NCBI RefSeq assembly: GCF_002161355.1 | Contig: NZ_NFHL01000003.1 | Coordinates: forward strand, 1 to 64,000 | Reading direction: 5' to 3' | Origin: Lachnoclostridium sp. An76 | GTDB taxonomy: Bacteria; Bacillota; Clostridia; Lachnospirales; Lachnospiraceae | Length of the DNA stretch: 64,000 bases | Part shown: piece by piece, positions 1 through 38,585 of the stretch | How positions within the stretch are numbered: the stretch's first letter is position 1 | Layout: each line of letters opens with the position of its first letter | Translations under genes and position numbers: made by a program | The notes under the pieces: generated by a model | Told to the model about the DNA's origin: nothing | The model's input: the letters and a program-made list of their open reading frames with translations, nothing else | Database searches by the model: none

Positions 1-677
1 TCCTTTCTTTTGTGGGGTGTTACCCCCCCCCCCCCAATAATTTTTATATTTTCCTTGTTACTCATCTCTTTCCTTTCTGCCGGAACTCCTATATATGTCC
101 CCGGCTCCATAATATTCGTTACGACCACAGCCCCTGCTCCAACCATGCACTCTGAGCAGACAGAGAGATTATTACTCACACTTGCTCCGATTCCGATCCA
201 TGTTTTTTCCCCTATGTGTACTGTTCCGGCAATATGTGCTCCTACCGATACATGGACAAAATCTCCAATTTGATCATCATGTTCCACAACAGCTCCCGAA
301 TTAATGATACAATGTCTGCCAACAGCGGCATCTGCATTGATTACAGCATTGGCCATAATGACTGATCCCTCGCCGATTTTTACTCCCATATTTGAAATAA
401 CCGCTGACGGATGGATCACTGTGTACCATTGAACGCCGTCCATTTTTAATGCTATCTTTTCGCGGATTGATGCATTGCCAATCGCAATGATAAAATAATA
501 CTCTTGATATTCTTTAAAACATTCTACTTTCCCTAAAACAGGAAAACCAATAAATCTTCCAGGTAATTCGGGATTATCATCTAAAAAGCCGATTACTCGA
601 TCTCCTGATTGAATAATAACATCCGCAACCACTTTCCCATGGCCGCTTGCCCCAATTATAATAACTTCTTTCTGCAT
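1..677 (-). CDS. pglD: UDP-sugar N-acetyltransferase, PglD/NeuD family (3' end beyond window)
   Basis: The reading frame opens at an ATG at 677 and runs off the left edge. It starts with a Rossmann-like piece (GASGHGKVVADV, residues 9-20), followed from about residue 90 by a left-handed beta-helix of hexapeptide repeats. His133 in VEHDD matches the catalytic base of PglD. In the family this enzyme acetylates the 4-amino sugar made by PglE, giving UDP-di-N-acetylbacillosamine. It begins 11 bases after pglC, so it belongs to the same operon. Codon use is distinctly AT-rich compared with genes to its right. With 13 Gs in the tract near its end the frame stays open through IIGGGGVT; with 12 or 15 it would stop at about 218 residues, the normal family length. 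NeuD-type sialic acid acetylation is the alternative role. Confidence 0.85.
   Translation of the reverse strand, partial: MQKEVIIIGASGHGKVVADVIIQSGDRVIGFLDDNPELPGRFIGFPVLGKVECFKEYQEYYFIIAIGNASIREKIALKMDGVQWYTVIHPSAVISNMGVKIGEGSVIMANAVINADAAVGRHCIINSGAVVEHDDQIGDFVHVSVGAHIAGTVHIGEKTWIGIGASVSNNLSVCSECMVGAGAVVVTNIMEPGTYIGVPAERKEMSNKENIKIIGGGGVTPHKRK
23..35. repeat. 13-base homopolymer (C on plus, G on coding strand)
   Basis: Thirteen C residues in a row lie in the last codons of the acetyltransferase read on the minus strand. A change of one base toggles between a TAA stop directly after the glycine run and an open frame. Homopolymers of this length are classic slipped-strand sites, but sequencing error must also be considered. 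Confidence 0.9.
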
Positions 678-688
678 TATACGCTGCC

Positions 689-1447
689 TCACCGCTCTTC
701 CGCACTCCCCTTAAACTCTTCCATCGTCGCCGCCGTCTCCGAACTGATCCCCTCCCTCTTCAACACCGTCTTCACGGTCTGAAAAATGATCTTCCAGTCC
801 CCAAGAAACGACACATGATCCACATATTCCACGTCCAGGTCAAACTTCTCTTCCCATGAGATTGCATTTCGTCCGTGTACCTGTGCATATCCGGTAAATC
901 CCGGGCGCACCTCATGGCGTCTCGCCTGGTGTTCATTATACAGAGGCAGATATTTGACCAACAGGGGTCTCGGTCCCACTACTGACATATCTCCGTTTAA
1001 GATATTAAAAAGCTCCGGGAGCTCATCCAGACTTGTGGATCTGAGCATTTTCCCGAAAGAGGTAAGTCTGATCTCATCCGAGAGAAGATTTCCCTCACTG
1101 TCTTTTTCATCTGTCATTGTACGGAACTTGTATAAAGTAAACACTTTTCCGTCCAACCCCGGCCGTTCCTGCTTAAATAAGACCGGAGATCCCAGCCTCA
1201 GCCTGACCAGGAGCACCGTAACTGCCATCACCGGCGACAGCACGATAATTGCAGCCAGCGCGCAGCAGAAGTCCTGCGGGCGTTTAATATATTTTTCGTA
1301 AAATCCCTGTTTGTGTCCTTGTACTGCTGCCTGATCCGCCTCATCCGGTTTGGATACCTTCTTCTTTTTCCTGGCCGCATATGACACTGCCGTGATGCCC
1401 GCCGCTGCGGCCAGCATTACGGATACTGCTTTTTTCCATTTACTCAT
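689..1447 (-). CDS. pglC: Phosphoglycosyl transferase, PglC-like (undecaprenyl-phosphate sugar phosphotransferase)
   Basis: 252 residues. From residue 48 on it matches the small monotopic phosphoglycosyl transferases: a re-entrant membrane helix (about 60-85), [17 protein letters not shown] (95-111), the catalytic Asp-Glu pair D141-E142 in [11 protein letters not shown], and [11 protein letters not shown]. These enzymes move phospho-sugar from a UDP-sugar onto undecaprenyl phosphate at the inner membrane face and start glycan assembly. The match is closer to bacillosamine-specific PglC than to long WbaP proteins. Unusual is a ~47-residue N-terminal extension with its own hydrophobic helix (about 8-25) and a lysine-rich stretch, since typical PglC is about 200 residues. 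It starts one base after the pglE stop, which argues for coupled translation. Confidence 0.88.
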
Positions 1448-1448
1448 T

Positions 1449-2708
1449 TTACCGGAAACATCCCTTCACGATCTCAATCACTTTCTCCTGCTTCTCCGCT
1501 GTCATCTTATTATCACTCGGCAGGCACAGTCCTCTCTGGAATATATCCATTCCCACATCCAACGGCTTACCGTCTTTTCCTTCTGCGCCGCCTTCGATAT
1601 AGGCATTGGTCACTGCCCTTCCATTGCCTTCCCTTGTGACGAACCCGTTCATCCGGTAGATTGGCTGCATGTGCATCGGTTTCCAGATGGGTCGCCCTTC
1701 TGCATTATATTTTGCCAGCGTCTCCAGTATTTCTGTCGGACAGGATTTTCCCGGCTCCGTGATATACAGGGCTTCCTGCTCTCCTCTCACCTGCCTGCAC
1801 ATTGCCTCCGGCTTAATCAGCATACAGCTCAGCCAGAAGTTTGGTTCGCTGCTTTCCCCGTCATAAGGATTCATCTTGACCGGAAGATCTTTAAATCCTT
1901 CTTTATATCTTTCATAAATCGCTTTTTTCTGCGCGATATGCTCTTCCAGATAGGGGAACTGCCCTCTTACCACTCCGGCGATCACATTGCTCATCCGGTA
2001 ATTGTAGCCCAGCTCTTCATGCTGATACCACGGTGCATTCTCTCTGGACTGGGTGGACCATTTTCTTACTTTGTCTGCCGCTCCTTTTTCATCCGTGAGC
2101 AGCATTCCCCCGGAAGATCCGGTGATGATCTTGTTCCCGTTGAAGGAAATACAATTGTACTTTCCGAATGTCCCTGTCTGTTTTCCTCTGTATACAGCTC
2201 CGAGTGATTCCGCCGCATCCTCAATGACCACCGCGCCATGCCTGTCGCATATTGCCTTCAGTTCGTCTATTTTCCCCGGTGTTCCGTAGAGATGGGCTAT
2301 GACCACGACCTTTACGTCAGGATAAATCTCAAACGCCTTCTCCAAAGCCGCGGGATCCATATTCCATGTATCATATTCAGTATCGATAAAGACCGGTACG
2401 CCGCCTTCATAGACAACCGGATTCACTGTCGCGTCAAATGTCATGTCTGAACAGAATACTTTATCTCCCGGCCGGACGCCTGCCAGTTTTACCGCCATGT
2501 GAAGGGCAGCTGTCCCTGCTGAAAGCGCCACAGCGTAGGCGCACCCGACCTTCCGGCATGCCATTTTTTCTGCTTCATTGATATTCTCGCCAACCGTTGA
2601 CATCCAGTTTGTATCAAATGCAGCTTTCATATATTCCATCTCCGGTCCGTGCATTGTGGGACTGGAAAGCCATATTTTATTTTCAAATGGTGTTATTTCT
2701 GTTTTCAA
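1449..2708 (-). CDS. pglE: PLP-dependent UDP-4-keto-sugar aminotransferase, DegT/DnrJ/EryC1/StrS family
   Basis: 419 residues of the DegT/DnrJ/EryC1/StrS fold. The PLP lysine is K193 in [14 protein letters not shown], preceded by the [11 protein letters not shown] motif that contacts the cofactor. The family converts a UDP-4-keto-6-deoxy sugar to the 4-amino sugar with glutamate as donor. Placed between a PglF-type dehydratase and PglC/PglD genes, it most likely makes UDP-4-amino-GlcNAc for bacillosamine. Length is slightly above the usual ~390; the extra residues sit in a loop near 280-340. It follows loaP by 65 bases in the same direction. Another amino sugar cannot be excluded from sequence alone. 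Confidence 0.87.
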
Positions 2709-2773
2709 AACATATTACCTCTGTTTCTTCATTCCTTCTGTATTTCCCATAAAATAAGATCCCCCATGGACTC

Positions 2774-3313
2774 TTACTGTATTTTCTCTTTTATCTTTCC
2801 TTGCGTTGTCACCTTCGCCACAATCTCCAGCCCCACCTGTGTCTCAACCTTCCTCCCGAACATCTCGACTTCCAGATAAGCCCTTCTCTTATGCCGGTCC
2901 ACCTTCCTGATCATCCCTTCATGCCCTTTCAGCGGTCCGCTCGTGACAACTACCCTGTCATCCTCGATGATCCCTTCTGACATGGCGACGATCTGTTCCT
3001 CTTTCCCGAATTCCATCAGAAGATCAACCTCATCTTCTGCCAGCGGCACAACTTCCTTTCCCGTGCCTATCAGCTTCGTAAGGCCGATCACCTTTTTCAG
3101 GCAGTGATACAGCTGTTCCTCATCTTCGCTGACGAGGAATACATACCCGGGGAACAGGATCTTTCTCTCCTTATGCCATTCTCCCTGATACCGCTTCATC
3201 TGCTCGCAGTAGGGGATAAAACAGTGCTCCAGTATTTCTTTTTCTATCACTCTCTCACACTGCTGCCGGATTTCTTCCTCCATACCGGTCCGCACCTGTA
3301 TTACATACCACAT
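2774..3313 (-). CDS. loaP: NusG-family antiterminator, LoaP-like
   Basis: 179 residues from the ATG at 3313 (MWYVIQVRTG), preceded by AGGCAGGGA. A longer frame to 3355 exists but has no ribosome site and adds residues foreign to the family. The N-terminal NGN domain (about 1-105, with FPGYVFL) is followed by a KOW domain (VVVTSGPLKGHEGMIRKVD, about 120-145). Specialised NusG paralogues of this kind (LoaP, RfaH, UpxY) bind RNA polymerase at a particular nascent hairpin and let it pass terminators in long polysaccharide or secondary-metabolite operons. Its location inside a glycan operon between pglF and pglE fits LoaP. Housekeeping NusG is unlikely because that gene normally sits next to secE and rplK. 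Confidence 0.85.
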   Translation of the reverse strand: MWYVIQVRTGMEEEIRQQCERVIEKEILEHCFIPYCEQMKRYQGEWHKERKILFPGYVFLVSEDEEQLYHCLKKVIGLTKLIGTGKEVVPLAEDEVDLLMEFGKEEQIVAMSEGIIEDDRVVVTSGPLKGHEGMIRKVDRHKRRAYLEVEMFGRKVETQVGLEIVAKVTTQGKIKEKIQ

Positions 3314-3479
3314 ACCATCCCTGCCTCTGCAATGTTCTCCGCACTGTGTTTCCATTCAATCGAAATCGAAAAAGAGTATGCTTCGCCATTTTGGCTGCCA
3401 TCCGGCACCCAAATCCATGTCAGTCATGTCCCTTCTCAGGACCGGACGCGGCAAAGCGACGATCCGTCCCTCAAAGTTC

Positions 3480-5357
3480 TTATACCCGGAGATCCGGCTT
3501 ATACGTCGGCACGATCCCCGCTACGATCTCCTTGATCCTTCCATCCTCATGCCGGCTCTCTTCGTCCAGCTCATCTAGCTGTGCCTCAAACTTCTCATCA
3601 TCCATCTTGATCGGCTTCCCGATATGGATCAGCTCGTTCTCTGTATCCTGCATTCCTTCCTCGTCCATGAGCAGCTCCTCATACAGCTTCTCCCCCGGAC
3701 GCAGTCCCGTATATTCCACCATGATATCCACATCCGGCTCATACCCGGAGAGGCGGATCAGGTTTCTCGCCATATCATCGATCTTCACCGGATCCCCCAT
3801 ATCCAGGACGAAGATCTCGCCGCCCTTTGCATAGTAGGATGCCTGGAGCACCAGTGACACAGCCTCAGGTATGGTCATAAAATAACGGATGATATTCTTA
3901 TCCGTCACAGTCACCGGGCCGCCTGCCGCGATCTGCTTCTTAAAGAGCGGAATCACACTTCCATTACTCCCCAGTACGTTTCCGAATCGCACTGCTACAA
4001 AATCTGTCCCCGGGCACTTCCGGTTCATCATCTGCACGACCATCTCACACAGCCTCTTGGACGCTCCCATGATATTTGTGGGGTTTACTGCCTTATCCGT
4101 GGAGATGAGGACGAACTTTTTCACCCCGGCCGCCGCGGCTGCCTTGGCCGTCTTATATGTACCGATCACATTGTTCTTGATTGCCTCGTTCGGGCTGTCT
4201 TCCATCAGAGGCACATGCTTGTGCGCCGCCGCGTGGAAGACTACATCCGGGTGGTATGTCTGCATGATCCAGTTGATCCGGTTTGTATTTCTTACTGACC
4301 CGATGCGCACATCCAGGTTCAGTTTATCGCCATATCTTCTGACCAGCTCCTGCTGGATGTCATAGGCATTATTCTCATAGATATCAAAGATCACAAGCTT
4401 ACCCGGCTGTGCCCCGGCAATCTGACGGCACAGCTCGCTTCCGATCGAGCCGCCGCCCCCGGTGACGAGCACGGTCTTCCCTTTGATGGAATGAAGGATT
4501 TCTTCGTTATTTACTTTTACCTGCGCCCTGCCCAGGAGATCTGTGATCTCCACGTCCCGGAGAGTGCTCACACTGACTTCTCCGTTTATGAGCTGGTACA
4601 CGCCCGGCACGGTCTGCATCCTGCACCCGGTATCTTTGCAGAGATTCAGGATATCCTTCCTGTTTTTCCCGGTTGTCGCTGGTATCGCATATATGATACG
4701 GTTAATGTCGTACTTTTTGATCATATCCACAATATCATAACGGTTCCCCACGATCGGGATGCCTTCCAGCATCCTCCCCTTTTTATTCGGGTTATCGTCT
4801 ATGATGCAGCACACTTTTACATCCGTTTGATTCGAATTGATCAGTTCTTTGATCAAAGTCTGTCCCGCCTGTCCGGCGCCAATGACCATGACACGGTCCT
4901 GCGTCTTACTGTGGTCCATTCCGCTGCGGTTGGCGTAAAACCGGAGCAGCCTGTACGAGAACCGGATCCCCGCTGTCAGGCAGAAGCTTATGATATAGCC
5001 CATCAGGTACCAGCTTGCCGGCATATGCAGATCCATGAACAAAGCGCCGCCCGCATACGCCAGGATCAGCAGGGCATATGCTGTCAGGATGGACCGCAGC
5101 TCCGCCACGCTGGCGAGGCGCCAGATACTGTGGTAAAGCCTGCATCCGTAAAATATCACGACTGTGACAATGATCCAGTACGGCATCGCCCACAGATAGC
5201 CCTGCAGGTACTGTCCCGGTACCTGCCACGGTCTGAGGTCAAACCGCAGCACAAGCGCCGCATAATAAGAAAATGCAATCGTCAGGACGTCTGCCAACAG
5301 AAGAAGAAGGGCTTTATGTATCCATTTCATGCCGGTTTCTCTTTTCCCCTCTCCCAT
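3480..5357 (-). CDS. pglF: Membrane-bound UDP-GlcNAc 4,6-dehydratase, PglF/CapD type
   Basis: 625 residues. Four N-terminal membrane helices (about 12-135) are followed by a Rossmann-like domain (VMVIGAGQAGQTL, 156-169) and a C-terminal SDR domain with the NAD-binding GGGGSIGSE (300-308). The catalytic set is T420-D421-K422, M430 and K434 in STDKAVNP...MGASKR, where Met replaces the usual SDR tyrosine as in PglF/FlaA1 dehydratases. The product would be UDP-4-keto-6-deoxy-GlcNAc, the substrate of the downstream PglE-type enzyme. The ATG overlaps the stop of the preceding 70-codon gene (TAATG), so it is probably translated by coupling. Campylobacter PglF is of similar length. Confidence 0.9.
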   Translation of the reverse strand: MGEGKRETGMKWIHKALLLLLADVLTIAFSYYAALVLRFDLRPWQVPGQYLQGYLWAMPYWIIVTVVIFYGCRLYHSIWRLASVAELRSILTAYALLILAYAGGALFMDLHMPASWYLMGYIISFCLTAGIRFSYRLLRFYANRSGMDHSKTQDRVMVIGAGQAGQTLIKELINSNQTDVKVCCIIDDNPNKKGRMLEGIPIVGNRYDIVDMIKKYDINRIIYAIPATTGKNRKDILNLCKDTGCRMQTVPGVYQLINGEVSVSTLRDVEITDLLGRAQVKVNNEEILHSIKGKTVLVTGGGGSIGSELCRQIAGAQPGKLVIFDIYENNAYDIQQELVRRYGDKLNLDVRIGSVRNTNRINWIMQTYHPDVVFHAAAHKHVPLMEDSPNEAIKNNVIGTYKTAKAAAAAGVKKFVLISTDKAVNPTNIMGASKRLCEMVVQMMNRKCPGTDFVAVRFGNVLGSNGSVIPLFKKQIAAGGPVTVTDKNIIRYFMTIPEAVSLVLQASYYAKGGEIFVLDMGDPVKIDDMARNLIRLSGYEPDVDIMVEYTGLRPGEKLYEELLMDEEGMQDTENELIHIGKPIKMDDEKFEAQLDELDEESRHEDGRIKEIVAGIVPTYKPDLRV

Positions 5358-5569
5358 TATACCCTTATCCTCCTGTGTCTGTATAAATAGATCGCCGCCC
5401 CGGCTGCAAGAGCCACAGCAGAAGCGATCACTGCATTGACCGGATCTACGGCAAGCGCCGCAGCCGGTGCCGCGTCCTGACTGATGACTTCCGCTGTATC
5501 AGCCGCATTCCCGCTCACAAGGCTCATACCAAACAGGTTTACGATATAATTAAGATATTCCATTCTCAT
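5357..5569 (-). CDS. Small single-pass membrane protein, unknown function
   Basis: 70 residues with no recognised family. A hydrophobic N-terminal stretch (about 5-20) is followed by an Ala/Asp-rich middle and a C-terminal membrane helix (about 44-62) ending in the basic tail RHRRIRV. This layout resembles the end of a sorting signal without any LPXTG-like motif. AAAGGAAG precedes two possible starts, ATG 5569 and ATG 5563. Its stop overlaps the pglF start by one base, so it may be a partner or assembly factor of the membrane dehydratase. That is inference from coupling only. Confidence 0.6.
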   Translation of the reverse strand: MRMEYLNYIVNLFGMSLVSGNAADTAEVISQDAAPAAALAVDPVNAVIASAVALAAGAAIYLYRHRRIRV

Positions 5570-5631
5570 TTATCTTCCTTTAAATAACTTTCTCAAAAAC
5601 GGTCCGCAGGACTTCCCATTTCCCACACAAA

Positions 5632-5657
5632 GGCGCGCCTATTCTCCCACGCGCGCC
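5632..5657 (-). terminator. GC-rich hairpin between sortase substrate and small membrane protein
   Basis: On the minus strand GGCGCGC (around 5657) and GCGCGCC (around 5632) form a 7-bp GC stem with a 12-base loop, followed by TTTGTG. The U tract is poor, so it may be a weak intra-operon terminator or only an RNA structure. It is noted because the operon encodes its own antiterminator. Confidence 0.3.
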
Positions 5658-5682
5658 CACTGTTGTCCATCTTATAAGCAAT

Positions 5683-6345
5683 CTACTCGTGTCTTGCTTT
5701 TCTGTATACCGCTGTCCCGGCAGCTCCCAGTACAACTGCAGCTCCGAGCCATGCAGCCCATCCGTACGTCATCCCGGTCTTCGGTGAGGTCCCGACCGAC
5801 GCATCCGCGCCGCCGCTCACTTTTCCGATCACAGCTACCGGTGAGAGGTCTTCGAAGATCACTGTCACTTCTTTATTTGTGTAATCTACATTCTCAGGCT
5901 CTACGATCTCCCATACACTCCTGCCCGTACTGTAATGGAGGAGTCCTACCTCAGATACATTCTCTGACAGCGCCGGCACAGACAGATTAACTTTATATTT
6001 ACCGCCTTCTACCTGTACGCCTCCGTTGATCGGGATCAGGTCAAAGAATTTTGTCAGCATGACCTTCCCTTCCAGGTCGTCCGCCAGCTCCGGGGCAAGG
6101 TCCGCCACGCTCTGGAGTGTCTCAGCCCCGGAATTCACTGCCTCGATCTTCGCCATCACTTCCGGTGCAGACGCAGCCAGATCCGGCAGCACGTCCGCGG
6201 ATGCCTCTTTCAGTTCGTACCATCCGACAGAATCTCCTACAAGTGTCATTTCTCCGGTCTTGCTCTCTCCTGCTGCAAATACTGCCACTGCCTGTGACAC
6301 GATAAGCGCTGCCGCAAGGATCGTGCCAAATAATTTCTTTCTCAT
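5683..6345 (-). CDS. Sortase-B-type surface protein with SPKTG sorting signal
   Basis: 220 residues. A signal peptide ends at about residue 25 (AVFAAGES). The mature part (about 30-180) has no obvious named domain. The C-terminus is a complete sorting signal: SPKTG at 187-191, a membrane helix (about 196-214) and the basic tail RKARHE. SPKTG is one of the motifs recognised by clostridial class B sortase (known for C. difficile SrtB). The sortase gene lies immediately upstream, separated by 39 bases, so it is the likely dedicated substrate. A good ribosome site (AAGGAAGGGA) precedes the ATG. The function of the exposed domain is unknown. Confidence 0.8.
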   Translation of the reverse strand: MRKKLFGTILAAALIVSQAVAVFAAGESKTGEMTLVGDSVGWYELKEASADVLPDLAASAPEVMAKIEAVNSGAETLQSVADLAPELADDLEGKVMLTKFFDLIPINGGVQVEGGKYKVNLSVPALSENVSEVGLLHYSTGRSVWEIVEPENVDYTNKEVTVIFEDLSPVAVIGKVSGGADASVGTSPKTGMTYGWAAWLGAAVVLGAAGTAVYRKARHE

Positions 6346-6384
6346 ATCGTCCCTTCCTTTCTTTAAACTGCTCTTAATGCTTTT

Positions 6385-7140
6385 TTATTGTTCTATTGAT
6401 ATCAGTACGGCCTGCACAAGATAACGCCTGTCCGCCTGGTTACCATAGCATGTTGACAATGTGATAATCTTATCCTCGTCTGTGACTGCCTGTCCGGTAT
6501 CGATACAGGCGCCCATCTCCCGGATCGAAAAAACGGAATCCAGATACTGACGGTAGATTTCTTTATCATCAAAATCAAAACTCTGCATGAGATGTCTGTC
6601 GTCATACAGGTATGCTGCAAATATCCTGTAATGCCGTATCGCGTCCGGCGTATAGACCAGCACTTCTCTGTTCGCGTCAAAGAAGCTCCTGTCCTGATAT
6701 TTCAGGAGATTCTGGAACATACTTCCGTTCGCCATGTCATGCCCGTAGATCACGGTATTCGGATCTTCAAAGTCCCGGCTGTTATAGGTTTCCGTATAGA
6801 TCGATCCTTCCGGGCTTACTTCGCCGTCGATCGTGTGTGTCAGATAATATGTATTATCCGTCTCACTCTGTACAATGGGATAATCGACCGCCGTCCCCGG
6901 TATTGTGATCCATGCGTAGATATCCGGATTTTTCGACTGCAGCGCGGCGAAATCGATCGGGATCTCGACGCCGCTGTCTTCGGGCTTTTCTTTTGGGACT
7001 CCCGTCCCCACCTCTGCCCTTAGGGCGCTGTAACCGTCCCCGGCATTCTTCTCTTTCAGGTACTGCCGGATCCCGACCCCTGCGCACACGGCTGCGGCGA
7101 GGAAAATAAGGATGCTCACCGCGAGATATTTCTTTTTCAC
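6385..7140 (-). CDS. srtB: Class B sortase
   Basis: 251 residues. A single N-terminal membrane anchor (about 5-24) is followed by the sortase beta-barrel: IPGTAVDYPIVQ (80-91), catalytic His134 in YGHDM, catalytic Cys231 in TLSTC and Arg239 in RRYLVQAVL. Class B sortases cleave a sorting motif and attach the protein to the peptidoglycan cross-bridge. Translation starts at a GTG whose GTGA overlaps the stop of the LCP gene. The neighbouring gene carries the SPKTG substrate, so the pair forms a small anchoring unit within the glycan operon. Confidence 0.92.
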   Translation of the reverse strand: MKKKYLAVSILIFLAAAVCAGVGIRQYLKEKNAGDGYSALRAEVGTGVPKEKPEDSGVEIPIDFAALQSKNPDIYAWITIPGTAVDYPIVQSETDNTYYLTHTIDGEVSPEGSIYTETYNSRDFEDPNTVIYGHDMANGSMFQNLLKYQDRSFFDANREVLVYTPDAIRHYRIFAAYLYDDRHLMQSFDFDDKEIYRQYLDSVFSIREMGACIDTGQAVTDEDKIITLSTCYGNQADRRYLVQAVLISIEQ

Positions 7141-8171
7141 GGCTTCTCACCTCTTCCGCCGCTCTCTGTTTCTCTGTAAAATGTCTCCAGGATTTTCTCA
7201 TAGAGCGCATCATCATCCACATGATACTCATCATAGGATTTTCCCTGCACTCCCTCTCCCGGCACTGTCCAGTTCTCTGTCACGCTCCCTGCCGCGGCGC
7301 TCTCCATCAATTTGACGAATTCGTCATTCCCCATGCTGGTGACCATATACGGTTCCAGCGCCATATAGAGCTCCGCCGCAAACGCGGTCCCGTCCGCAGC
7401 TTTTTTCTGCGCCGCTTCCCCGAACGCACGGATGTATTCCTTCTGCCGCTCTGTGCGGGCAAGCGCGCTCTGCGGGGTTGATGTATCTCTGTATCTCACA
7501 AACAGCTCTGTATTTTCTTTGTCTAATGTCACCTGAGCCCCTTCTGAGAACTCAGGGTACGCTTCTTCCATACTGTCATTAGGGACTGTGACTGTTACTG
7601 TCCCCACACTCTCCGTAAGCACCGGGATGCCGTCAAGGTTCACAGCGCAGTATCCCTGGATAGGCAGTCCGTACAGAAGATCTGACACTGCCTCCTCGGT
7701 CAGCCGGCAGCTCTCATGCCCTCCGTCTCCATACGCGTAGGAAAGGCTGATATGGTCTTCTGACTTCCCCAGGCTCTCTCCGCCCGGGCCGAATGCCTCG
7801 ACCTCAGTCATGGTATCCCTTGGGATGGTGACCACGCTGACCGTCTTCTCTACCCGGTCCCATGAGAGCAGGTACAGGGCATCCGCCTGTCCTGCGTCTG
7901 CCTGCCCGACGGAAGTTTCTGCCTTTTCTCTTGTATCTATCCCCAGCAAAAGATAATTGCTCAGGTGGTCATTATACTGGTATTCTTTTCCTTCCCAGAT
8001 CACTGTCCCGGCGTCAGGAGTATCTGCATCTGCATTCCCGCCGGTCTCCTGCGCCTGCTCTCCCGGCCGCACTGTCCTGAAAACGAGAAATCCCACCGCC
8101 AGTGCTGCTGCCGCTGCCACGCACACCGGGATCAGCCACAGTTTCTTTTTCCGCTTTTTTCTTCCAGTCAT
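7137..8171 (-). CDS. LytR-CpsA-Psr (LCP) family glycopolymer ligase
   Basis: 344 residues. A basic cytoplasmic start and one membrane helix (about 11-31) precede an extracellular LCP domain with YLLLGIDTR (73-81), DALYLLSWD, and VVTIPRDT (113-120), whose Arg/Asp residues bind the pyrophosphate of the lipid-linked donor. LCP proteins transfer undecaprenyl-linked glycopolymers onto peptidoglycan. The linker at 40-55 is Asp/Ala/Gly-rich. The gene starts right at the end of cpsD (8172) and overlaps srtB by 4 bases. In this operon it would attach the glycan started by PglC. Confidence 0.88.
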   Translation of the reverse strand: MTGRKKRKKKLWLIPVCVAAAAALAVGFLVFRTVRPGEQAQETGGNADADTPDAGTVIWEGKEYQYNDHLSNYLLLGIDTREKAETSVGQADAGQADALYLLSWDRVEKTVSVVTIPRDTMTEVEAFGPGGESLGKSEDHISLSYAYGDGGHESCRLTEEAVSDLLYGLPIQGYCAVNLDGIPVLTESVGTVTVTVPNDSMEEAYPEFSEGAQVTLDKENTELFVRYRDTSTPQSALARTERQKEYIRAFGEAAQKKAADGTAFAAELYMALEPYMVTSMGNDEFVKLMESAAAGSVTENWTVPGEGVQGKSYDEYHVDDDALYEKILETFYRETESGGRGEKP

Positions 8172-8858
8172 TTACTTCTCTTCACCGTAATAATAGCTGT
8201 ATTTTGAATAATACTTATTTTTCTTTATATCGACTTTATTCAGCACTGCCCCAAGGATATGGCAGCCGCTCATCTCCAACTGCTGCTTTACTTTTAAAGC
8301 CACCCGCCTGCTTACCAGGTCGCTCTCCACGACCAGGATCGCTCCGTCACACTGCCTTGCCACGACTGCGGCATCTGTCAGGCTCCCGACCGGCGGCGTA
8401 TCGACCAGCACATAATCATATTTCCCCCGCATTGTATGCACAAGGGAAGCGAAGCTTTCCTGCGCCAAAAGCTCCGATGGGTTCGGAGCTGACGGGCCGG
8501 CGAATATGATGTCTACATCCCGGAAATTTGTGCTGTATACAATATCCTGCAGTCCGCTCTGGCCGCTGAGGTACTGTGAGAGGCCTGCTGTCTTCTGCTT
8601 CACCTGGAACCTGCTTATATAACTGGATTTGCGGATATCCGCATCCAGGACGAGCACTTTTTTCCCCATCTTTCCGATCTCGAGCGCGAGCTGGAAGACC
8701 ACATCGCTCTTTCCCTCATTGGGGTAACAGCTCGTAATGACGATGGACTTAACCTCTGTCCCGGTGAACTGTATATTTGTACGGAGGGTCTTAATGGCTT
8801 CTTCGTAGAAATAATCATTCTGCTTGGGATCTGTCATGATCACCCTGCGTTCCGTCAT
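8172..8858 (-). CDS. cpsD: CpsD/CapB-family autophosphorylating tyrosine kinase
   Basis: 228 residues of a bacterial tyrosine kinase: Walker A PNEGKS (46-51), Walker A' VLVLDADIRKSS (68-79), Walker B VLVDTPPVG and a C-terminal tyrosine cluster (YYSKYSYYY) that is autophosphorylated. With the membrane activator CpsC and phosphatase CpsB it controls export and chain length of capsule or exopolysaccharide. The ATG overlaps the cpsC stop (ATGA). It lacks its own membrane segment, as usual in Firmicutes, where the transmembrane part is CpsC. Confidence 0.93.
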   Translation of the reverse strand: MTERRVIMTDPKQNDYFYEEAIKTLRTNIQFTGTEVKSIVITSCYPNEGKSDVVFQLALEIGKMGKKVLVLDADIRKSSYISRFQVKQKTAGLSQYLSGQSGLQDIVYSTNFRDVDIIFAGPSAPNPSELLAQESFASLVHTMRGKYDYVLVDTPPVGSLTDAAVVARQCDGAILVVESDLVSRRVALKVKQQLEMSGCHILGAVLNKVDIKKNKYYSKYSYYYGEEK

Positions 8859-9601
8859 TTATGTTTCCTCCTCTTTCTTTTGCGCTTTGATTTCTTTTCC
8901 GACTTCCCGGAGATATAGTCTTTCCGGTCCGGTATGCTCGCCAGCGTCGGGATCTTCAGATATCTTTCGATATCATCCTCTGACCGGAGACTGTCATCCA
9001 TGATCGTCATCAGTGTCACAACTCCTGCCGGCAGGACCAGACCTGCCAGTGCGCCGAGCATCACATTCCTGCTCAGGCTCGGGCTTGCCTGCGATGTGGG
9101 CACCTCTGCTTTCTCTATGATCTTTGGCGGCACGACTTCCATCTTGTCGCCGATATACTCAGAAGACACAGCTGCGAGTTCATCCGCGAGCTCTTTTGCC
9201 AGCTCCGGATCCGGGTTCGTCACTGTGATCTGCAGGATCCGTGTCTCATCCGGGTTATTGATGGATACGTTTCCTTTCAGGGCGCCGTATCCCATATCAA
9301 GCCCCAGGTTATCGATCACTTCTTCAAGCACGCTCCGGCTCGTGATCAGCATACTGTAGTCCTTCGTGAGCTGACTCCCGAACTGCAGGTCCGCGATCGA
9401 AGTGAGCGTGGTCTCTTTCGAAATGACAAGCACAGTCGAAGTCGCGCTGTACAGAGGTGTGATCAGCAGCTTGGTGTAAGCTCCCGCGATCAGCGCTCCG
9501 GCCAGCAGAGCAGCCACAATGATAAGGACCCTCTTTTTCAGGGCATACAGTATCTCTACCAGGTCGATTTCCATCTCGTCATTATCGTATGTTTTTTCCA
9601 T
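8855..9601 (-). CDS. cpsC: Wzz/CpsC-type chain-length regulator and kinase activator
   Basis: 248 residues with two membrane helices (about 27-49 and 182-204) bounding an extracellular Wzz domain. The cytoplasmic C-terminus is strongly basic (KSEKKSKRKRKRRK) and would contact CpsD. In the family this protein activates the kinase and helps set polymer length. AGAGGAAAC precedes the ATG. The gene overlaps cpsD by 4 bases and is the second gene of the operon. Confidence 0.9.
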   Translation of the reverse strand: MEKTYDNDEMEIDLVEILYALKKRVLIIVAALLAGALIAGAYTKLLITPLYSATSTVLVISKETTLTSIADLQFGSQLTKDYSMLITSRSVLEEVIDNLGLDMGYGALKGNVSINNPDETRILQITVTNPDPELAKELADELAAVSSEYIGDKMEVVPPKIIEKAEVPTSQASPSLSRNVMLGALAGLVLPAGVVTLMTIMDDSLRSEDDIERYLKIPTLASIPDRKDYISGKSEKKSKRKRKRRKHK

Positions 9602-9647
9602 AATTATGGTTTCCTCTTACCTTATTTATTTGCGCACCGGTTATACT

Positions 9648-10373
9648 TTATATTTCTTTTCCTTCCAGCAGCCCCATCGCGTTTCTCTTAAGCACTGCTT
9701 CTATATAACTGCTGCTGAGTTCCTTTTCCATCCACCTTACGGCTCTCTCCGTCTCCGGTCCGCGCCCCTCAGTGTTATGCATATCTGTCCCCAGGAAATC
9801 CGCCAGCCCCCGCCGCAGTATCTTCCTGCACCATCTGGCCGTCCCCTGATGCCATTTCCCGCCCGCCGGCCGGAAATTGAGCTGTACACATGCCCCCTGT
9901 TTCTTCAGTTCTTCCAGTCTTCCCTCTTCCCGCAGCGCCTGATACCGCTCTGCATGCGCCAAGACCGGGCGGTAACCTGCAAGGGTCAGTTCCCTGACCG
10001 CACTAAATATGTAAGAATACGGTGCCGCAGGCAGAAATTCGACCATGACATATCTTGTGCCGGCTATGGTGAGAAGTTTTTCCTCTTCCAGTAAGCTCAA
10101 AGCATCTTCAGAGTACATGATCTCCTGTCCCGGCCAGATCTGGATCTCTGTTTTCAGTCTCGCACGCGCCTGTGCCTGCACTTCCCGGCACAGTCTCCGT
10201 ATACGGTCTGGACATATGTTTGGAAATCTGCCGGAATAATGCGGCGTCGCTATCACGCCCCGTATTCCCTGCTGCCCGGCCTGCCGGAGCATGCGGATAC
10301 TTTCCTGCATATCTGAAGCTCCATCGTCCAGTCCCGGCAGGATATGGCTGTGTGTATCAATAATCCATGTCAT
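9648..10373 (-). CDS. cpsB: CpsB/YwqE-type protein-tyrosine phosphatase (PHP family)
   Basis: 241 residues from the ATG at 10373 (MTWIIDTHSHILPGLDDG). A longer frame up to 10445 is rejected because the promoter lies inside it. The PHP metal motif DTHSHILPG (6-14), ATPHY (about 45), a GQE motif, HAERY and the late LGTDMH metal site are all present. The enzyme is a manganese-dependent phosphatase that dephosphorylates CpsD and so closes the regulatory loop. It is the first gene of the glycan operon. Confidence 0.9.
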   Translation of the reverse strand: MTWIIDTHSHILPGLDDGASDMQESIRMLRQAGQQGIRGVIATPHYSGRFPNICPDRIRRLCREVQAQARARLKTEIQIWPGQEIMYSEDALSLLEEEKLLTIAGTRYVMVEFLPAAPYSYIFSAVRELTLAGYRPVLAHAERYQALREEGRLEELKKQGACVQLNFRPAGGKWHQGTARWCRKILRRGLADFLGTDMHNTEGRGPETERAVRWMEKELSSSYIEAVLKRNAMGLLEGKEI

Positions 10374-10411
10374 CCGGCAATGTTCCTCTCCTATCGACGA
10401 TATCCAGTGAA

Positions 10412-10441
10412 ATGATACCTCAGTTCGCCATTTTATGTCAA
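10412..10441 (-). promoter_or_regulatory. Promoter of the glycan operon
   Basis: On the minus strand TTGACA (10441-10436), an 18-base spacer and TATCAT (10417-10412) give a good sigma-A promoter. It predicts a start near 10405 and a leader of about 30 bases before cpsB. Directly upstream (10455-10487) are three copies of a 9-base A-tract unit (ATGTAAAAA on this strand), which could act as a curved UP-like element. No LoaP-type hairpin fits in the short leader. Confidence 0.7.
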
Positions 10442-10489
10442 GCAATTTTGCTCTTTTTACATTTTTTACATTTTTTACATTTTTTGGTA

Positions 10490-10650
10490 TAACAGTTCAG
10501 CCATCGGGCTGCGCGGGAGAGAAAATCATGCTCGCATGATTTTTCGAGCGGGCAGTCCGATGAGCTGAGCGCCCGTTAATGAGGAAAACAGCGGCGGCAG
10601 CCGCAGTAAGCACGCAGTGCGGTTTTCCGAATGGCGCGGCTGAACTGTTA
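10490..10650. repeat. 161-bp palindromic element with 13-bp perfect terminal inverted repeats
   Basis: TAACAGTTCAGCC at 10490-10502 is exactly mirrored at 10638-10650. Inside are nested dyads: ATCATGCTCGCATGAT (about 10525-10540) and GGAAAAC at 10583 mirrored by GTTTTCC at 10622. There is no coding content. The shape is that of a MITE or REP-like interspersed element sitting between the polyamine and glycan operons. It could also act as a terminator region. Confidence 0.65.
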
Positions 10651-10782
10651 CTTTTCGTTCAACAGTTATTACTGCGCCTTTTCCCTTCACATCCTCGATC
10701 ATGCCCACGACTGCCACCGGCTTCGCTGCCGACGGGTCTGCCGTCTCGCAGATAAACCATCCGCGCTCCACGCCGCTATTTC

Positions 10783-10962
10783 TTACAGCTCCTGTTTTAC
10801 TGCTCCGGTTTCACCCAGCCACTTGCGTACAACCTGGACGCTTTCATCCAACGCCTGGGCGATCTTTTCCGTACTCATACCCATTTGAGCAAGATTCCCC
10901 GCTACTTCTTTTGCCTTTTCTTCCTTCCCTTTCTGTTCGATCCACTCTGTCACTTCACACAT
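10783..10962 (-). CDS. Stand-alone C-terminal domain of Rpn-type nuclease (59 residues)
   Basis: A 59-codon gene begins at ATG 10962 with a strong ribosome site (GAGGGGAG, 6 bases away), 12 bases after the nspC stop. The sequence (CEVTEWIEQKGKEEKAKEV, then LAQMGMSTEKIAQALDESV and WLGE) looks like the C-terminal helical/HTH part of Rpn (PD-(D/E)XK recombination-promoting nuclease/putative transposase) proteins. No nuclease domain is encoded nearby. Rpn genes are known to contain an internal start producing a small C-terminal inhibitor protein, so this could be an orphan of that kind or simply a truncated remnant. Confidence 0.5.
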   Translation of the reverse strand: MCEVTEWIEQKGKEEKAKEVAGNLAQMGMSTEKIAQALDESVQVVRKWLGETGAVKQEL

Positions 10963-10974
10963 TATATTCTCCCC

Positions 10975-12207
10975 TCACAGCCTCGCCTTAAAATCCTCAT
11001 ATCCGAATGTTTTTACGATTTCACACGTCCCGTCCTCTCTCTCGAGAACGATATCCGGGAGCCTCATCCCGTTGAATGTATTCGTCTTCACCATTGTATA
11101 GATCGCCATATCCTGAAACTCCAGACGGTCTCCACATTTCAGCGGCTGTGCGAAGGAATAATCCCCGATCACGTCCCCCGCAAGGCATGTGGGCCCTGCC
11201 AGCCGGTACTCATACGGCCGCTCGTGTCCCGCTGTTCCGCTGTCCGCAGCGCCGCTGCCCACAGAACTGCTGCCCGAAGGACTGCTTCCCGCAAAACCGT
11301 TGCCGCCCGCATTCTCCTCCGCCGGATCGCCCGCGTCTTTCAGCGGCGGCCGGTACGGCATCTCCAACACGTCCGGCATATGGCACGCAGCGGAAGCGTC
11401 CAGGATCGCGATCTTCATCCCGTTCTCCACGATCTCCATCACTTCTGTTATAAGCTCGCCGGCATTCAGCGCCACTGCCTCCCCGGGTTCCAGATAGACT
11501 TCCACACCGTATGTTTCCTTCATATGGCGGATGCAGCGCTTCAGCAGTCCAATATCATAGCCAGGTCTCGTAATGTGATGCCCGCCGCCGAAATTCACCC
11601 ATTTCATCCTGTGCAGATATTTCCCGAATTTCTCTTCCACTGCCCGAAGCGTCTTTGCCAGGTCGTCGGAATCCTGCTCGCATAATGTATGGAAATGCAG
11701 CCCGTCCAGTGCGGAGATATCTTCCTCTGACATCTCTTCCTCAAACTTTTCCAGCGTAGTCCCCAGTCTGGAAAACGGGGCGCACGGGTCATAGATCGCA
11801 TGTCCTTCCTGTGTCGAGCACTCCGGGTTGACCCTCAGCCCCATGCTCCTGCCCGCCTGCTTTACCTGTTCCTTATATTTCTTCACCTGCGCCGGGGAGT
11901 TAAACACGATATGCCCGCACAGCCTAAGGATCTCCGGCATCTCCTCTTTCTTATACGCCGGGGAGAAGATATGGTTCTCCTTTCCCATCTCCTCGTATCC
12001 CAGTTTTGCCTCATACAGCCCGCTCGCTGTGGTTCCGTCCAGGTACTGCCCGATCAGCGGGTATACCCGGTACATGGAGAACGCCTTCTGCGCCAGCAGG
12101 ATCCTGCATCCCGTCTCCATGCGGACTTCTTTCAGTATCTCCAGATTTCTCCTGAGTCCCTCCTCCCGCACCACAAAACAGGGAGTTTTTAACTGTTCTT
12201 TTCTCAT
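10975..12207 (-). CDS. nspC: Carboxynorspermidine/carboxyspermidine decarboxylase
   Basis: 410 residues of the alanine-racemase-fold decarboxylases. PLP lysine K41 lies in LLAQKAFS; HFHTLCEQ (171-178), NFGGGHH (205-211) and GPTCLAGDVIG (338-348) contribute to the active site. It removes the carboxyl group of carboxyspermidine to give spermidine, the last step of the pathway begun by the neighbouring dehydrogenase. Residues 291-329 are a Gly/Ser/Ala-rich low-complexity insertion between the PYRPP motif and the C-terminal barrel, making the protein about 30 residues longer than usual. It is the last enzyme gene of the polyamine operon. Confidence 0.92.
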   Translation of the reverse strand: MRKEQLKTPCFVVREEGLRRNLEILKEVRMETGCRILLAQKAFSMYRVYPLIGQYLDGTTASGLYEAKLGYEEMGKENHIFSPAYKKEEMPEILRLCGHIVFNSPAQVKKYKEQVKQAGRSMGLRVNPECSTQEGHAIYDPCAPFSRLGTTLEKFEEEMSEEDISALDGLHFHTLCEQDSDDLAKTLRAVEEKFGKYLHRMKWVNFGGGHHITRPGYDIGLLKRCIRHMKETYGVEVYLEPGEAVALNAGELITEVMEIVENGMKIAILDASAACHMPDVLEMPYRPPLKDAGDPAEENAGGNGFAGSSPSGSSSVGSGAADSGTAGHERPYEYRLAGPTCLAGDVIGDYSFAQPLKCGDRLEFQDMAIYTMVKTNTFNGMRLPDIVLEREDGTCEIVKTFGYEDFKARL

Positions 12208-12241
12208 AATAAATGACCTGCCATATCACCCTAATCCGAAT

Positions 12242-13450
12242 TTACTCTACCAGCTCCGGATCCTCGCTGATCTTCCACGGCAGCCCCCATTTATTGAGCG
12301 CGTCCATGAACGGATCGGGATCGAATTCTTCCATATTATATACACCCGGTTTCTGCCATGTCCCGGTCATTACCATCATTGCCCCGATCATCGCCGGTAC
12401 TCCGGTCGTATAGGCAACTGCCTGGGAGCCGACTTCCTTATAGCATTCCTGGTGGTCACATGTATTATATATGTAGAGTTTCTTCTCCTGCCCGTCTTTT
12501 TTCCCGATGAAGATACAGCCGATATTGGTCTTTCCCTTTGTGCGCGGCCCCAGTGACGACGGATCCGGGAGCACTGCTTTTAAGAACTGGAGCGGCACGA
12601 TCTCTTTCCCCTCATACATGATGGGTTCTATGGAAGTCATGCCCACATCTTCCAGACATCTTAAGTGGTTCAGGTAGCTTTCCCCGAATGTCATGAAGAA
12701 ACGGATGCGTTTGATCCCCGGGATATTCAGCGCCAGGGACTCAATCTCCTCGTGGTGGAGCAGGTACATATCCTTTTCTCCAATCTCCGGGAAATTGTAC
12801 ACTCTCTTGATCTCCATGGGCTCTGTCTCTACCCAGTGCCCGTTCTCCCAATAGGAGCCTTTCGCGGACACTTCGCGGATATTGATCTCCGGGTTAAAGT
12901 TCGTGGCGAACGGATAGCCGTGGTCCCCGGCATTGCAGTCCAGGATATCAATATAATTTATTTCGTCAAAATAATGTTTCAGTGCATAAGCGGAGAACAC
13001 ACTTGTCACTCCCGGGTCAAACCCGCTTCCAAGAAGGGCGGTCAGCCCTGCCTTCTCGAACTTCTCCCTGTACGCCCACTGCCATTTATACTCAAACTTC
13101 GCCGTATCCTCCGGCTCATAATTCGCTGTGTCAATATAGTGGACGCCTGCTGCCAGACACGCATCCATAATCGTAAGGTCCTGATACGGCAGCGCCAGGT
13201 TGAGCACCACTTCCGGCTTTTCCTTTTTGATCAGAGCTGTCAGTGCTTCCACATCATCCGCGTCCACCTGCGCGGTCGTGATCTTCGTCTTTGTAGTCCC
13301 CTCCAGCTTTTCTTTAAGCGCGTCGCACTTTGACACTGTCCTGCTGGCAATGCACAGCTCCGTAAATACTTCGTCATTCTGGCAGATCTTATGGATCGCC
13401 ACACTGGCTACTCCTCCGCAGCCGATTACCATTACTTTTCCCATTTTCAA
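12242..13450 (-). CDS. Carboxy(nor)spermidine synthase (saccharopine dehydrogenase family)
   Basis: 402 residues. The N-terminal Rossmann motif VMVIGCGGVASV (6-17) is followed by SRTVSKC and a central saccharopine-dehydrogenase-like domain with LLGSGFDPGVTSVFSAY. In the family (CASDH) it condenses aspartate semialdehyde with putrescine using NADPH to form carboxyspermidine. nspC follows 34 bases downstream, the standard pair for the S-adenosylmethionine-independent spermidine route of gut Firmicutes. A true saccharopine dehydrogenase is unlikely in this context. Confidence 0.9.
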   Translation of the reverse strand: MKMGKVMVIGCGGVASVAIHKICQNDEVFTELCIASRTVSKCDALKEKLEGTTKTKITTAQVDADDVEALTALIKKEKPEVVLNLALPYQDLTIMDACLAAGVHYIDTANYEPEDTAKFEYKWQWAYREKFEKAGLTALLGSGFDPGVTSVFSAYALKHYFDEINYIDILDCNAGDHGYPFATNFNPEINIREVSAKGSYWENGHWVETEPMEIKRVYNFPEIGEKDMYLLHHEEIESLALNIPGIKRIRFFMTFGESYLNHLRCLEDVGMTSIEPIMYEGKEIVPLQFLKAVLPDPSSLGPRTKGKTNIGCIFIGKKDGQEKKLYIYNTCDHQECYKEVGSQAVAYTTGVPAMIGAMMVMTGTWQKPGVYNMEEFDPDPFMDALNKWGLPWKISEDPELVE

Positions 13451-13555
13451 TCTCCTCTCTGCCCGGTCTGTCCCCGGGAACTATTTCTCCCTGTTTTCTA
13501 ATTGGCAATATTTCTGTTTCTCTCCTCTGTCCCAGGCCTCGCCGTCCGCCCGCGC

Positions 13556-14443
13556 TTACGGCTTACGATCCCGATTCACGACCGCGATCAGCATCTCCCT
13601 GATGATCTTGCACGCCGCCGCTGTGGACGCCCCGGTCGGGTCGCAGGGCGGACACAGCTCATTCACATCGCAGCCGATCAGATTCACTTTTTCACACACT
13701 TCCGTCACCGCCCGCATCGCGGTGAGGAAATCCACTCCGCCCGGCTCAGGCGTCCCTGTCCCAGGGAATACAGATGGATCCATCACATCCAGGTCTACCG
13801 TAAAGTACACCGGCACATCTCCCAGTTCCGCCAGGACTTCTCCCAGCCCTTCCAGGCTGAACGGATGGAAATCTGTATGCCCGCTCTTCGCCCAGTCAAA
13901 CTCGTATTTTTCTCCGGACCGGATGCCGAACTGGTGGATACGCCCGTCGCCGACCAACTCCCAGCACCGCCGGATCACGCACGCATGGGACAGCTCCACT
14001 CCCAGATAGTCCTCCCGCAGGTCTGTATGCGCGTCAAAGTGGAGGATATGCATGTCCGGATACTTCTTTACAGCCGCGCGCACGCTTCCCAGCGTGACCA
14101 GGTGCTCACCGCCGATCATGAACGGCAGCTTCCCATCTGCAAATATCCCTGCCGCGCACTCTTCGATCTGCCCCAGCACCCGCTCTGAGCTCCCGATCGC
14201 CAGCTCCAGGTCGCCGAGGTCATACACCCTTCCCTCGGTCAGCTCTTTGTCCTGATACGGGCTGTATATCTCCAGCCCGTAGGAATCCCCCCGTATGGCC
14301 GCTCCCGCGAAACGGGTCCCCGGCCGGAAGGACGTCGTTGAGTCGAAGGGCGCTCCGAAGATCACCACATCCGCCTCATCGTACCCCGCATCGCAGCCGA
14401 TAAAATTTACAATATTCTTCTGCATTCTCTCTCCCTTAGTCAT
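13556..14443 (-). CDS. speB: Agmatinase
   Basis: 295 residues of the ureohydrolase family. The binuclear manganese motifs are all visible: GGEH (about 116), DAHTD (about 141-145) and DLDVMDP (about 222-228). It hydrolyses agmatine to putrescine and urea, directly after arginine decarboxylase in the pathway. Two starts are possible: ATG 14443 (used) and ATG 14425, which has AAGGGAG close in front. It lies between speE and the CASDH gene in the polyamine operon. Confidence 0.93.
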   Translation of the reverse strand: MTKGERMQKNIVNFIGCDAGYDEADVVIFGAPFDSTTSFRPGTRFAGAAIRGDSYGLEIYSPYQDKELTEGRVYDLGDLELAIGSSERVLGQIEECAAGIFADGKLPFMIGGEHLVTLGSVRAAVKKYPDMHILHFDAHTDLREDYLGVELSHACVIRRCWELVGDGRIHQFGIRSGEKYEFDWAKSGHTDFHPFSLEGLGEVLAELGDVPVYFTVDLDVMDPSVFPGTGTPEPGGVDFLTAMRAVTEVCEKVNLIGCDVNELCPPCDPTGASTAAACKIIREMLIAVVNRDRKP

Positions 14444-14473
14444 CTCTCTTTCCCCACTCTCCCTTTGCCATGC

Positions 14474-15328: not shown

Positions 15329-15345
15329 GGGATATCTTTCTCCTT

Positions 15346-38425: not shown

Positions 38426-38446
38426 ATAACGCGCGCTCATAACATA

Positions 38447-38526
38447 TCCCTCCGCTGGCATTATCCAGATCAGGTTATGGGTCGAAGTTATCAACTTCCT
38501 CTCAGCCTGTCATACAAGCTCCCCTT
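38447..38526 (-). promoter_or_regulatory. TPP (THI-box) riboswitch
   Basis: The minus strand shows the conserved blocks in order: GGGGAGC, GGCTGAGAGG, GACCC, ACCTGATCTGGATAATGCC and AGCGGAGGGA. It binds thiamine pyrophosphate and turns down thiT, which begins about 60 bases downstream. Confidence 0.96.
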
Positions 38527-38585
38527 GTCATCAATCTTATGTAGTTTTATGTCGGATACTATGTTAAACGTATCGGACAGAAATG

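Follow-up and report, generated by a model that had tools for sequence, protein, structure and literature searches.

The 64,000-nucleotide stretch of Lachnoclostridium sp. An76 analysed here (NZ_NFHL01000003.1, positions 1 to 64,000; hereafter the window) forms the beginning of contig C20 in an assembly of 3.43 Mb on 26 contigs that is 99.9% complete. Its base 1 is a contig edge, at which a glycan operon breaks off with its left half absent from the window. On the minus strand, to which all operon features given below belong, the genes from 10445 down to 1 encode a CpsB-like PHP protein, Wzz, CpsD, an LCP protein, a sortase, a TSPKTG protein, a 70-amino-acid protein, PglF, LoaP, PglE, PglC and PglD. 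Directly 5' of loaP lies a structured leader RNA (3357–3484), which shares a few bases with the pglF stop.

For the interval 1–5357, the original prediction was of a complete bacillosamine synthesis and loading set with its catalytic residues present, standing beside capsule regulators, an LCP ligase and a sortase. Pfam and NCBIfam scans and Protein Data Bank (PDB) alignments confirm the four gene families and these neighbours (Wzz, CpsD, LCP and a class B sortase), with the corrections that pglD is open at the contig edge, its 3' end unseen, and that loaP and the structured RNA in the same interval had been missed. The membrane UDP-GlcNAc 4,6-dehydratase PglF (3480–5357; PF02719, Polysacc_synt_2, 405 bits) is of the PglF/EpsC type, with the 'WlaL protein' 5bju as its best PDB sequence (282 bits; next different protein 185). 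The sugar aminotransferase PglE (1449–2708; DegT_DnrJ_EryC1, 269 bits) scores best with 1o61 and 4ztc (245 and 242 bits; next 226, among 66 PDB sequences), and PglC (689–1447; PF02397, Bac_transf, 208 bits), a monotopic phosphoglycosyl transferase (PGT), with 8e37 and 8g1n (247 and 245 bits), the next different protein reaching 114, i.e. 133 bits below. Directly after PglC comes a NeuD/PglD-family sugar N-acetyltransferase (3–668; TIGR03570, 228 bits with a cut-off of 160.8; PglD_N, 75 bits), the frame of which passes through a G13 tract (23–35, located by a tract search of the assembly) and meets no stop before the edge. We take 1o61, 4ztc, 2npo, 3bss, 5bju and 8e37 to be Campylobacter proteins, 1o61 and 4ztc being C. 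jejuni PglE. The aligned residues of PglE (the pyridoxal phosphate lysine Lys193 in NGNK), PglD (His130) and PglF (STDK...NIMG..K at 419–434) are presumably catalytic. PglC carries Asp141-Glu142 and PRP, and excerpts of PMC10653937 describe this DE dyad and PRP as catalytic features.

The specialised NusG paralogue LoaP (2774–3355; likely start MWYV at 3313) is encoded between pglE and pglF and matches NF033641 with 194 bits at a cut-off of 125, the sole match above the cut-off in the assembly. A candidate second LoaP on contig C12 was rejected, as it scores 90 bits, below the cut-off, and reads as a housekeeping nusG beside ribosomal protein genes. Comparison of the regions upstream of loaP revealed a motif common to the window, L023 (from a Candidatus Mediterraneibacter, the nearest named locus by synteny), L024 and L030. 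In the window it consists of a covarying stem, a 16-nt conserved loop, a second hairpin, the box AUGGCGAAGC and a U-rich end. A model (R1) built from six sequences, namely these four with L043 and L108, gave 34 matches in 29 of 397 genomes of the family, representing 25 of 334 genera. The genome of the window has a single copy, and the weakest locus read, L175 (29.5 bits), is probably false.

The structure of this RNA is shown by covariation. In 38 aligned sequences, the alignment having been fitted to the structure, which flatters the result, 90.8% of the cells of a 12-pair helix are paired, compared with 71.7% after shuffling and 21–55% when the helix is slid, while its covariation score is 0.481 versus 0.156 and further pair types number 34 versus 27.0 (for each, none of 500 shuffles did as well). 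When the arms on either side of the 16-nt loop were counted without an alignment in 30 distinct sequences (8 of the 38, without the strict core or box, were left out), pairs 1–4 were standard in 30 of 30 and arm positions 2–7 in 87%, versus 56% in 5000 shuffles (maximum 67%). The hairpin directly before AUGGCGAAGC has a mean perfect stem of 5.6 pairs versus 3.8 shuffled, and a loose GNNAYA box stands between helix and second hairpin in 28 of 38 sequences. A possible pseudoknot from loop to box (GCNUYGYC with GGCGRAGC) was drawn by eye, and both of its sides hardly vary. Two results tell against the structure: helix pairs changed on both sides number 8 versus 6.5 in shuffles, 41 of 500 of which reach 8, and single-sequence folding is unremarkable (z of −1.63 and +0.43), so that the case for the element rests on covariation.

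As for genomic context, LoaP is encoded on the element's own strand and no more than about 900 nt away in 23 of the 30 loci read; loaP follows the element in 21 of these and precedes it in two (L171 and L174), where a PGT gene then follows. All ten LoaP proteins scanned beside the element pass the curated cut-off, one of them barely (125.7 versus 125). In the compared DNA (1.5 Mb, both strands), 33 copies of the box RTGGCGRAGCNNRY were counted, 31 of them beside LoaP; L025 is part of L106, so that one locus enters this count twice, and many of the loci had been chosen by R1. Among 80 loci selected by PglE instead, the box was present in 8 of 11 with LoaP versus 1 of 69 without (Fisher p 5e-8), although four of the nine positive loci (L023, L024, L030 and L043) helped to define the motif and two (L026 and L029) were in an alignment seen before the box was written; the least circular ones, L025, L031 and L034, all stand beside LoaP. 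The gene after loaP varies, being pglE, pglF, a PGT gene or, by reading, a Wzz-like or PIG-L-like gene. As the element mostly lies directly before loaP whatever follows, it appears to belong with loaP to a regulatory cassette and not to be a switch tied to one sugar. The seven loci without LoaP in reach count against this association; three of them (L156, L165 and L166) are at contig edges, two (L162 and L164) have PglE instead, and two (L170 and L175) have neither. Viral contigs gave no matches to the strict element pattern.

It is rather unlikely, in our estimate, that the RNA is not LoaP's partner but a riboswitch-like element, or one derived from a mobile-element RNA of, for instance, the RAGATH type, that simply accompanies loaP. 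In the sequences scanned, the element stays below the gathering score of every Rfam family. EAR, which we take to be represented in Rfam, was rejected as an identity because the window scans gave no Rfam match to it (E≤1 in 1–16000, E≤10 in 3300–3520). This alternative draws on sub-threshold matches to RAGATH-28 (RF03052; gathering score 45.3 bits) at the element in the window (22.8 bits), L043 (25.5) and L149 (29.7), on a weak match to LOOT in L164 (30.5 bits, with a gathering score of 46.4), and on the description, in excerpts of PMC11061315, of another family, RAGATH-18, as a TnpB guide RNA. L024 gave no RAGATH-28 match at E≤10, nor did 19 of 20 further loci at E≤1. The 23 of 30 loci in which LoaP adjoins the element argue against the alternative, as do the 16 nt after GGCGAAGC, which have no second match in the window when up to three mismatches are allowed (the search being within the window) and in several loci run on as a pyrimidine-rich RYACC-U; on the former ground a guide-RNA reading was rejected.

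For B. velezensis, excerpts of PMC12691694 report that LoaP binds a leader hairpin and promotes terminator read-through by antagonising NusA, and that loaP genes often adjoin polysaccharide operons. By analogy, we propose that the RNA at 3357–3484 is the LoaP signal of these capsule operons: it would probably load LoaP on the polymerase, or else constitute a leader switch that LoaP overrides, so that the transcript from loaP onward would probably be read through and LoaP-loaded RNA polymerase would pass through the long downstream biosynthesis genes. Whether the element is a new class of LoaP-recruiting structured leader RNA, serving processive antitermination of capsule operons in about two dozen genera of the family and distinct from both the Bacillus EAR and the UNCG hairpin, is in our judgement about evenly balanced. 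The published LoaP hairpin is of the UNCG type, and hairpins of this type (stem of at least 5) were counted in only 3 of 38 leaders versus 1.2 by chance; the window has one weak candidate near the element end, with a 5-pair stem including a G-U pair and the loop UUCG. The RNA matters more than the sugar pathway as an outcome of this analysis, since it provides a concrete 130-nt candidate for the LoaP target in gut-commensal capsule operons; if the proposal is true and the RAGATH-28 resemblance reflects kinship, it would also provide a candidate function for RAGATH-28-like RNAs.

A separate feature of tandem LoaP genes is a segment of 171–194 nt directly upstream of them, flanked by inverted repeats of 23–33 nt that are 93–100% complementary (L025 2818–3050, L026 8388–8614, L031 8388–8647, L034 8545–8784 and L083 8438–8686). 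These segments look like invertible promoters switching LoaP capsule operons.

With regard to the sugar, PglF, PglE and PglD would convert UDP-GlcNAc to UDP-N,N'-diacetylbacillosamine (UDP-diNAcBac), which from the enzyme families we infer to be the product, and PglC would put diNAcBac-1-phosphate onto undecaprenyl phosphate. Several scores are less favourable to this assignment. PglD is not separated from VioB and perosamine acetyltransferases, because five family proteins (2npo first, then 7txp, 4ea7, 2vhe and 3bss) score within 2 bits, and it is incomplete at the edge; the nearest NCBIfam model of PglE is LegC, at 316 bits, below the cut-off of 420. A scan of the window PglE against the genome collection found at least 579 relatives, of which the best 80 were kept (73–89% identity; the closest, not a random sample), and a PglC tree was made from the 60 loci with a usable PglC (at least 150 amino acids, at most 2.5 kb after PglE), the other 20 being left out. 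When C4-capping enzymes were labelled by hidden Markov model matches above 150 bits within 4 kb, with one label per locus and PglD taking precedence (six loci had several caps), the 60 loci comprised 24 with PglD, 13 with an ATP-grasp protein, four with a GNAT, one with a formyltransferase, 15 with none of these and three unscored. The enzyme expected to cap the C4 amine thus varies among the closest relatives of PglE, and the presence of PglE and PglC is by itself no sign of bacillosamine.

The quick PglC tree clusters by PglD label (11 changes versus 19.0 in shuffles, none of 500 being as low), a clustering that relatedness alone also favours. The window PglC falls in a group of seven rows with an SH-aLRT (Shimodaira-Hasegawa-like approximate likelihood ratio test) value of 92 and PglD in all seven, and ten rows form a starred group (100), nine of them without a recognised cap and one unscored. 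A clean split is contradicted by several other groups that contain both PglD and ATP-grasp rows, such as L030 with L100, and L043 with L044 and L048. We read this as PglC specificity that may partly track the C4 substituent, and the grouping supports diNAcBac as the probable sugar in the window. That PglC would instead load a different 4-amino-4,6-dideoxy sugar (for example the galacto epimer, one with another 4-N-acyl group, or a free amine like that of zwitterionic polysaccharides) is unlikely. This alternative draws on the presence of PglD in only 24 of 60 loci, with other caps or none elsewhere, and on L108, near-identical to the window upstream of PglE, which has a GNAT after PglC; against it stand the PglD right after PglC in the window, the uniformly PglD-positive tree group, and the best PglE scores with the presumed C. 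jejuni PglE sequences 1o61 and 4ztc. In L107 (10391–10669), from the single-contig genome G017, pglD is shortened to 92 amino acids before an ATP-grasp gene, which offers a natural test of PglD loss.

The missing half of the operon probably lies at the right end of contig C1 (L118). This join is suggested because strand and gene content fit, the only G tracts of at least 12 in the assembly are the window's G13 and a G77 at the C1 right end, and the order PGT, PglD, ATP-grasp recurs in L027 (ATP-grasp frame of 534 amino acids versus 543 on C1) and, with PglD shortened, in L107. On the matching strand, L118 encodes in order an ATP-grasp-HAD fusion, GT4, GT2, a polysaccharide deacetylase, GT4, a Wzy_C protein and GT2, then two proteins without a Pfam or NCBIfam family, an Asp/Glu-racemase-family protein, a multi-pass protein, a KdsB-like cytidylyltransferase, an HMGL-type aldolase and a HAD phosphatase, and the cluster ends in genes that read as transposase-like. 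Three points weigh against this continuation or its completeness: the tail of one gene of no assigned identity precedes the ATP-grasp gene at the C1 end, poly-G read from both sides may be a sequencing artefact, and the multi-pass protein was read as a flippase but has no Pfam match. The check proposed with the prediction, to look further left for glycosyltransferases, a flippase and an oligosaccharyltransferase, gave four glycosyltransferases on the probable continuation, a flippase by reading, and no STT3 match in the assembly. Of the other flippase or glycosyltransferase matches in the assembly, those on C23 and C24 look unrelated when read in context, and 562–580 kb of C1 (L109) holds a second glycan cluster, which has a long PGT; the scan also listed three more flippase-family matches and one more glycosyltransferase match.

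It is likely, taking these lines together, that the locus is a Wzy-type capsule or exopolysaccharide cluster primed by diNAcBac and equipped with LoaP and a leader RNA. The chain would be built by the glycosyltransferases and the Wzy-like protein from C1, and its fate may be attachment to the wall by the LCP protein. No match to PF02516 (STT3/PglB) was found at E≤0.001 in the assembly by a search that was positive in 4 of 14 control genomes, all archaea, and the locus is therefore read as a capsule or exopolysaccharide cluster, an N-glycosylation reading being rejected. A wall-linked glycan or a glycoprotein system primed by diNAcBac had been predicted; the sequence supports a Gram-positive glycan operon with enzymes of the UDP-diNAcBac type and a PglC-type PGT, but gives no support for kinship with a protein N-glycan system. 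Transfer of the lipid-linked glycan to protein in a Campylobacter-like manner is very improbable: the priming enzymes are the same, the operon has a sortase and a sorted-looking secreted protein, and a Wzy_C-type O-oligosaccharyltransferase is indistinguishable by family, but STT3 is missing from the assembly matches and the genes for Wzz, CpsD, LCP and Wzy_C speak for a polymer. The use of the same enzymes for legionaminic or pseudaminic acid, which had been named as a possible refutation, is not borne out, there being no NeuB-family synthase in the cluster. The sole NeuB-family match in the assembly search (32 bits, C1:755917) is outside it and reads as 3-deoxy-D-arabino-heptulosonate 7-phosphate synthase, and a sialic-type acid reading of the cluster was rejected.

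The remaining operon genes run upstream from pglF, beginning with a 70-amino-acid protein (5357–5569) with a C-terminal hydrophobic stretch and a YRHRRIR tail, which has a counterpart at the same place in L108. A secreted 220-amino-acid protein (5683–6345), to which Pfam and NCBIfam scans assigned no family, ends in TSPKTG, a likely sorting signal, and is followed by a class B sortase (6385–7140; TIGR03064, 172 bits, cut-off 154), an LCP-family ligase (7137–8171; PF03816, 66 bits), a CpsD-type tyrosine autokinase (8172–8858; TIGR01007, 216 bits, cut-off 108) and a Wzz/CpsC chain-length protein (8855–9601; PF02706, 65 bits). The first gene of the operon encodes a CpsB-like PHP phosphatase (9648–10445; likelier start the ATG at 10373), so identified by sequence reading and by BLAST counterparts beside Wzz/CpsD in relatives. 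A promoter-like site, TTGACA-18-TATCAT (10412–10441; 11 of 12 matches), precedes it, in scans of 1–12300 that were near chance for promoters (16 sites versus 12.2 expected) and terminators (11 versus 9.1). The pairing of a sortase with a single secreted protein that carries TSPKT(G/A) close to the C-terminus recurs between LCP and pglF in the window (5683–7140), L108 (3010–4460), L081 (6334–7940) and L098 (6230–7841), and this protein is possibly a wall-anchored capsule partner. Directly upstream of the operon, at 10975–16794, lie polyamine-type genes (NspC-, Lys1-, SpeB-, SpeE- and SpeA-like by reading), their order partly kept in L023, and a thiamine pyrophosphate riboswitch is found at 38428–38535 (64.6 bits). 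On L118, the KdsB-like CMP-transferase (280 bits, over the cut-off), the HMGL-type aldolase and the HAD phosphatase stand together at 4105–7061 and might lead to a CMP-activated keto-sugar acid of an unusual kind.

Poly-G tracts of at least 10 number 71 in 58 genomes of the genus, and 12 of them, including the window's own edge tract, are within 20 kb of a PF02397 PGT, a count that none of 200,000 simulations reached and that compares with an expectation of 2.2 under uniform placement; other radii gave 9 versus 1.1 (10,000 bases) and 13 versus 3.2 (30,000 bases). By eye, a CpsB-like PHP gene starts within 300 nt of the tract in 6 of 15 regions (L131, L132, L133, L136, L139 and L140), and TTGACA stands just after the tract in L132, L133, L136, L139 and also L023. 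Slippage control of capsule promoters by these tracts is possible. In L076, a G10 (13815–13824) within a glycosyltransferase-like gene, for which 9 G would by eye keep the frame, is either a phase-off state or a sequencing error.

Among known systems, the C. jejuni pgl cluster has homologous PglF, PglE, PglD and PglC, but the window's assembly lacks an STT3 match and has Wzz, CpsD, LCP and Wzy_C-type capsule genes instead. The original prediction made its contrast with Campylobacter alone and overlooked B. subtilis eps: according to excerpts of PMC10653937, EpsC, EpsN and EpsM were proposed to make and EpsL was shown to load diNAcBac, C. jejuni pglC complements an epsL deletion, and the EAR RNA, whose role in antitermination is given by the title of a reference in PMC12691694, is located between epsB and epsC. 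A Gram-positive glycan that starts from diNAcBac is thus already known, and the bacillosamine part of the present locus extends a proven Bacillus mechanism to gut Clostridia. The epsA-O operon unites the same four activities in one polysaccharide operon, whereas the window, with no EAR match, has LoaP and a different RNA between pglF and pglE, and an LCP protein, a class B sortase and a TSPKTG protein inserted. In Eggerthella lenta, capsule clusters are likewise linked to loaP, but large inversions move them relative to it, and the excerpts of the preprint PMC13174815 mention no leader RNA. The open PMC subset yielded no description of a LoaP RNA target in gut-commensal capsule operons, and nothing on RAGATH with LoaP, on RAGATH-28, or on bacillosamine with Lachnospiraceae, LoaP with Lachnospiraceae giving unrelated titles. 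By eye, the element resembles RAGATH-28 in its 5' stem-loop, CAUA linker, second hairpin and 3' AUGGCGAAGC, but differs in its apical loop, and all three matches are below threshold. The B. velezensis dfn and mln operons share with the window a LoaP protein and a leader RNA before a long operon; there, in the excerpts of PMC12691694, the RNA is a UNCG-tetraloop hairpin before polyketide operons, whereas that of the window is about 130 nt long, carries a 16-nt conserved loop and the AUGGCGAAGC box, and mostly lies just upstream of loaP itself.

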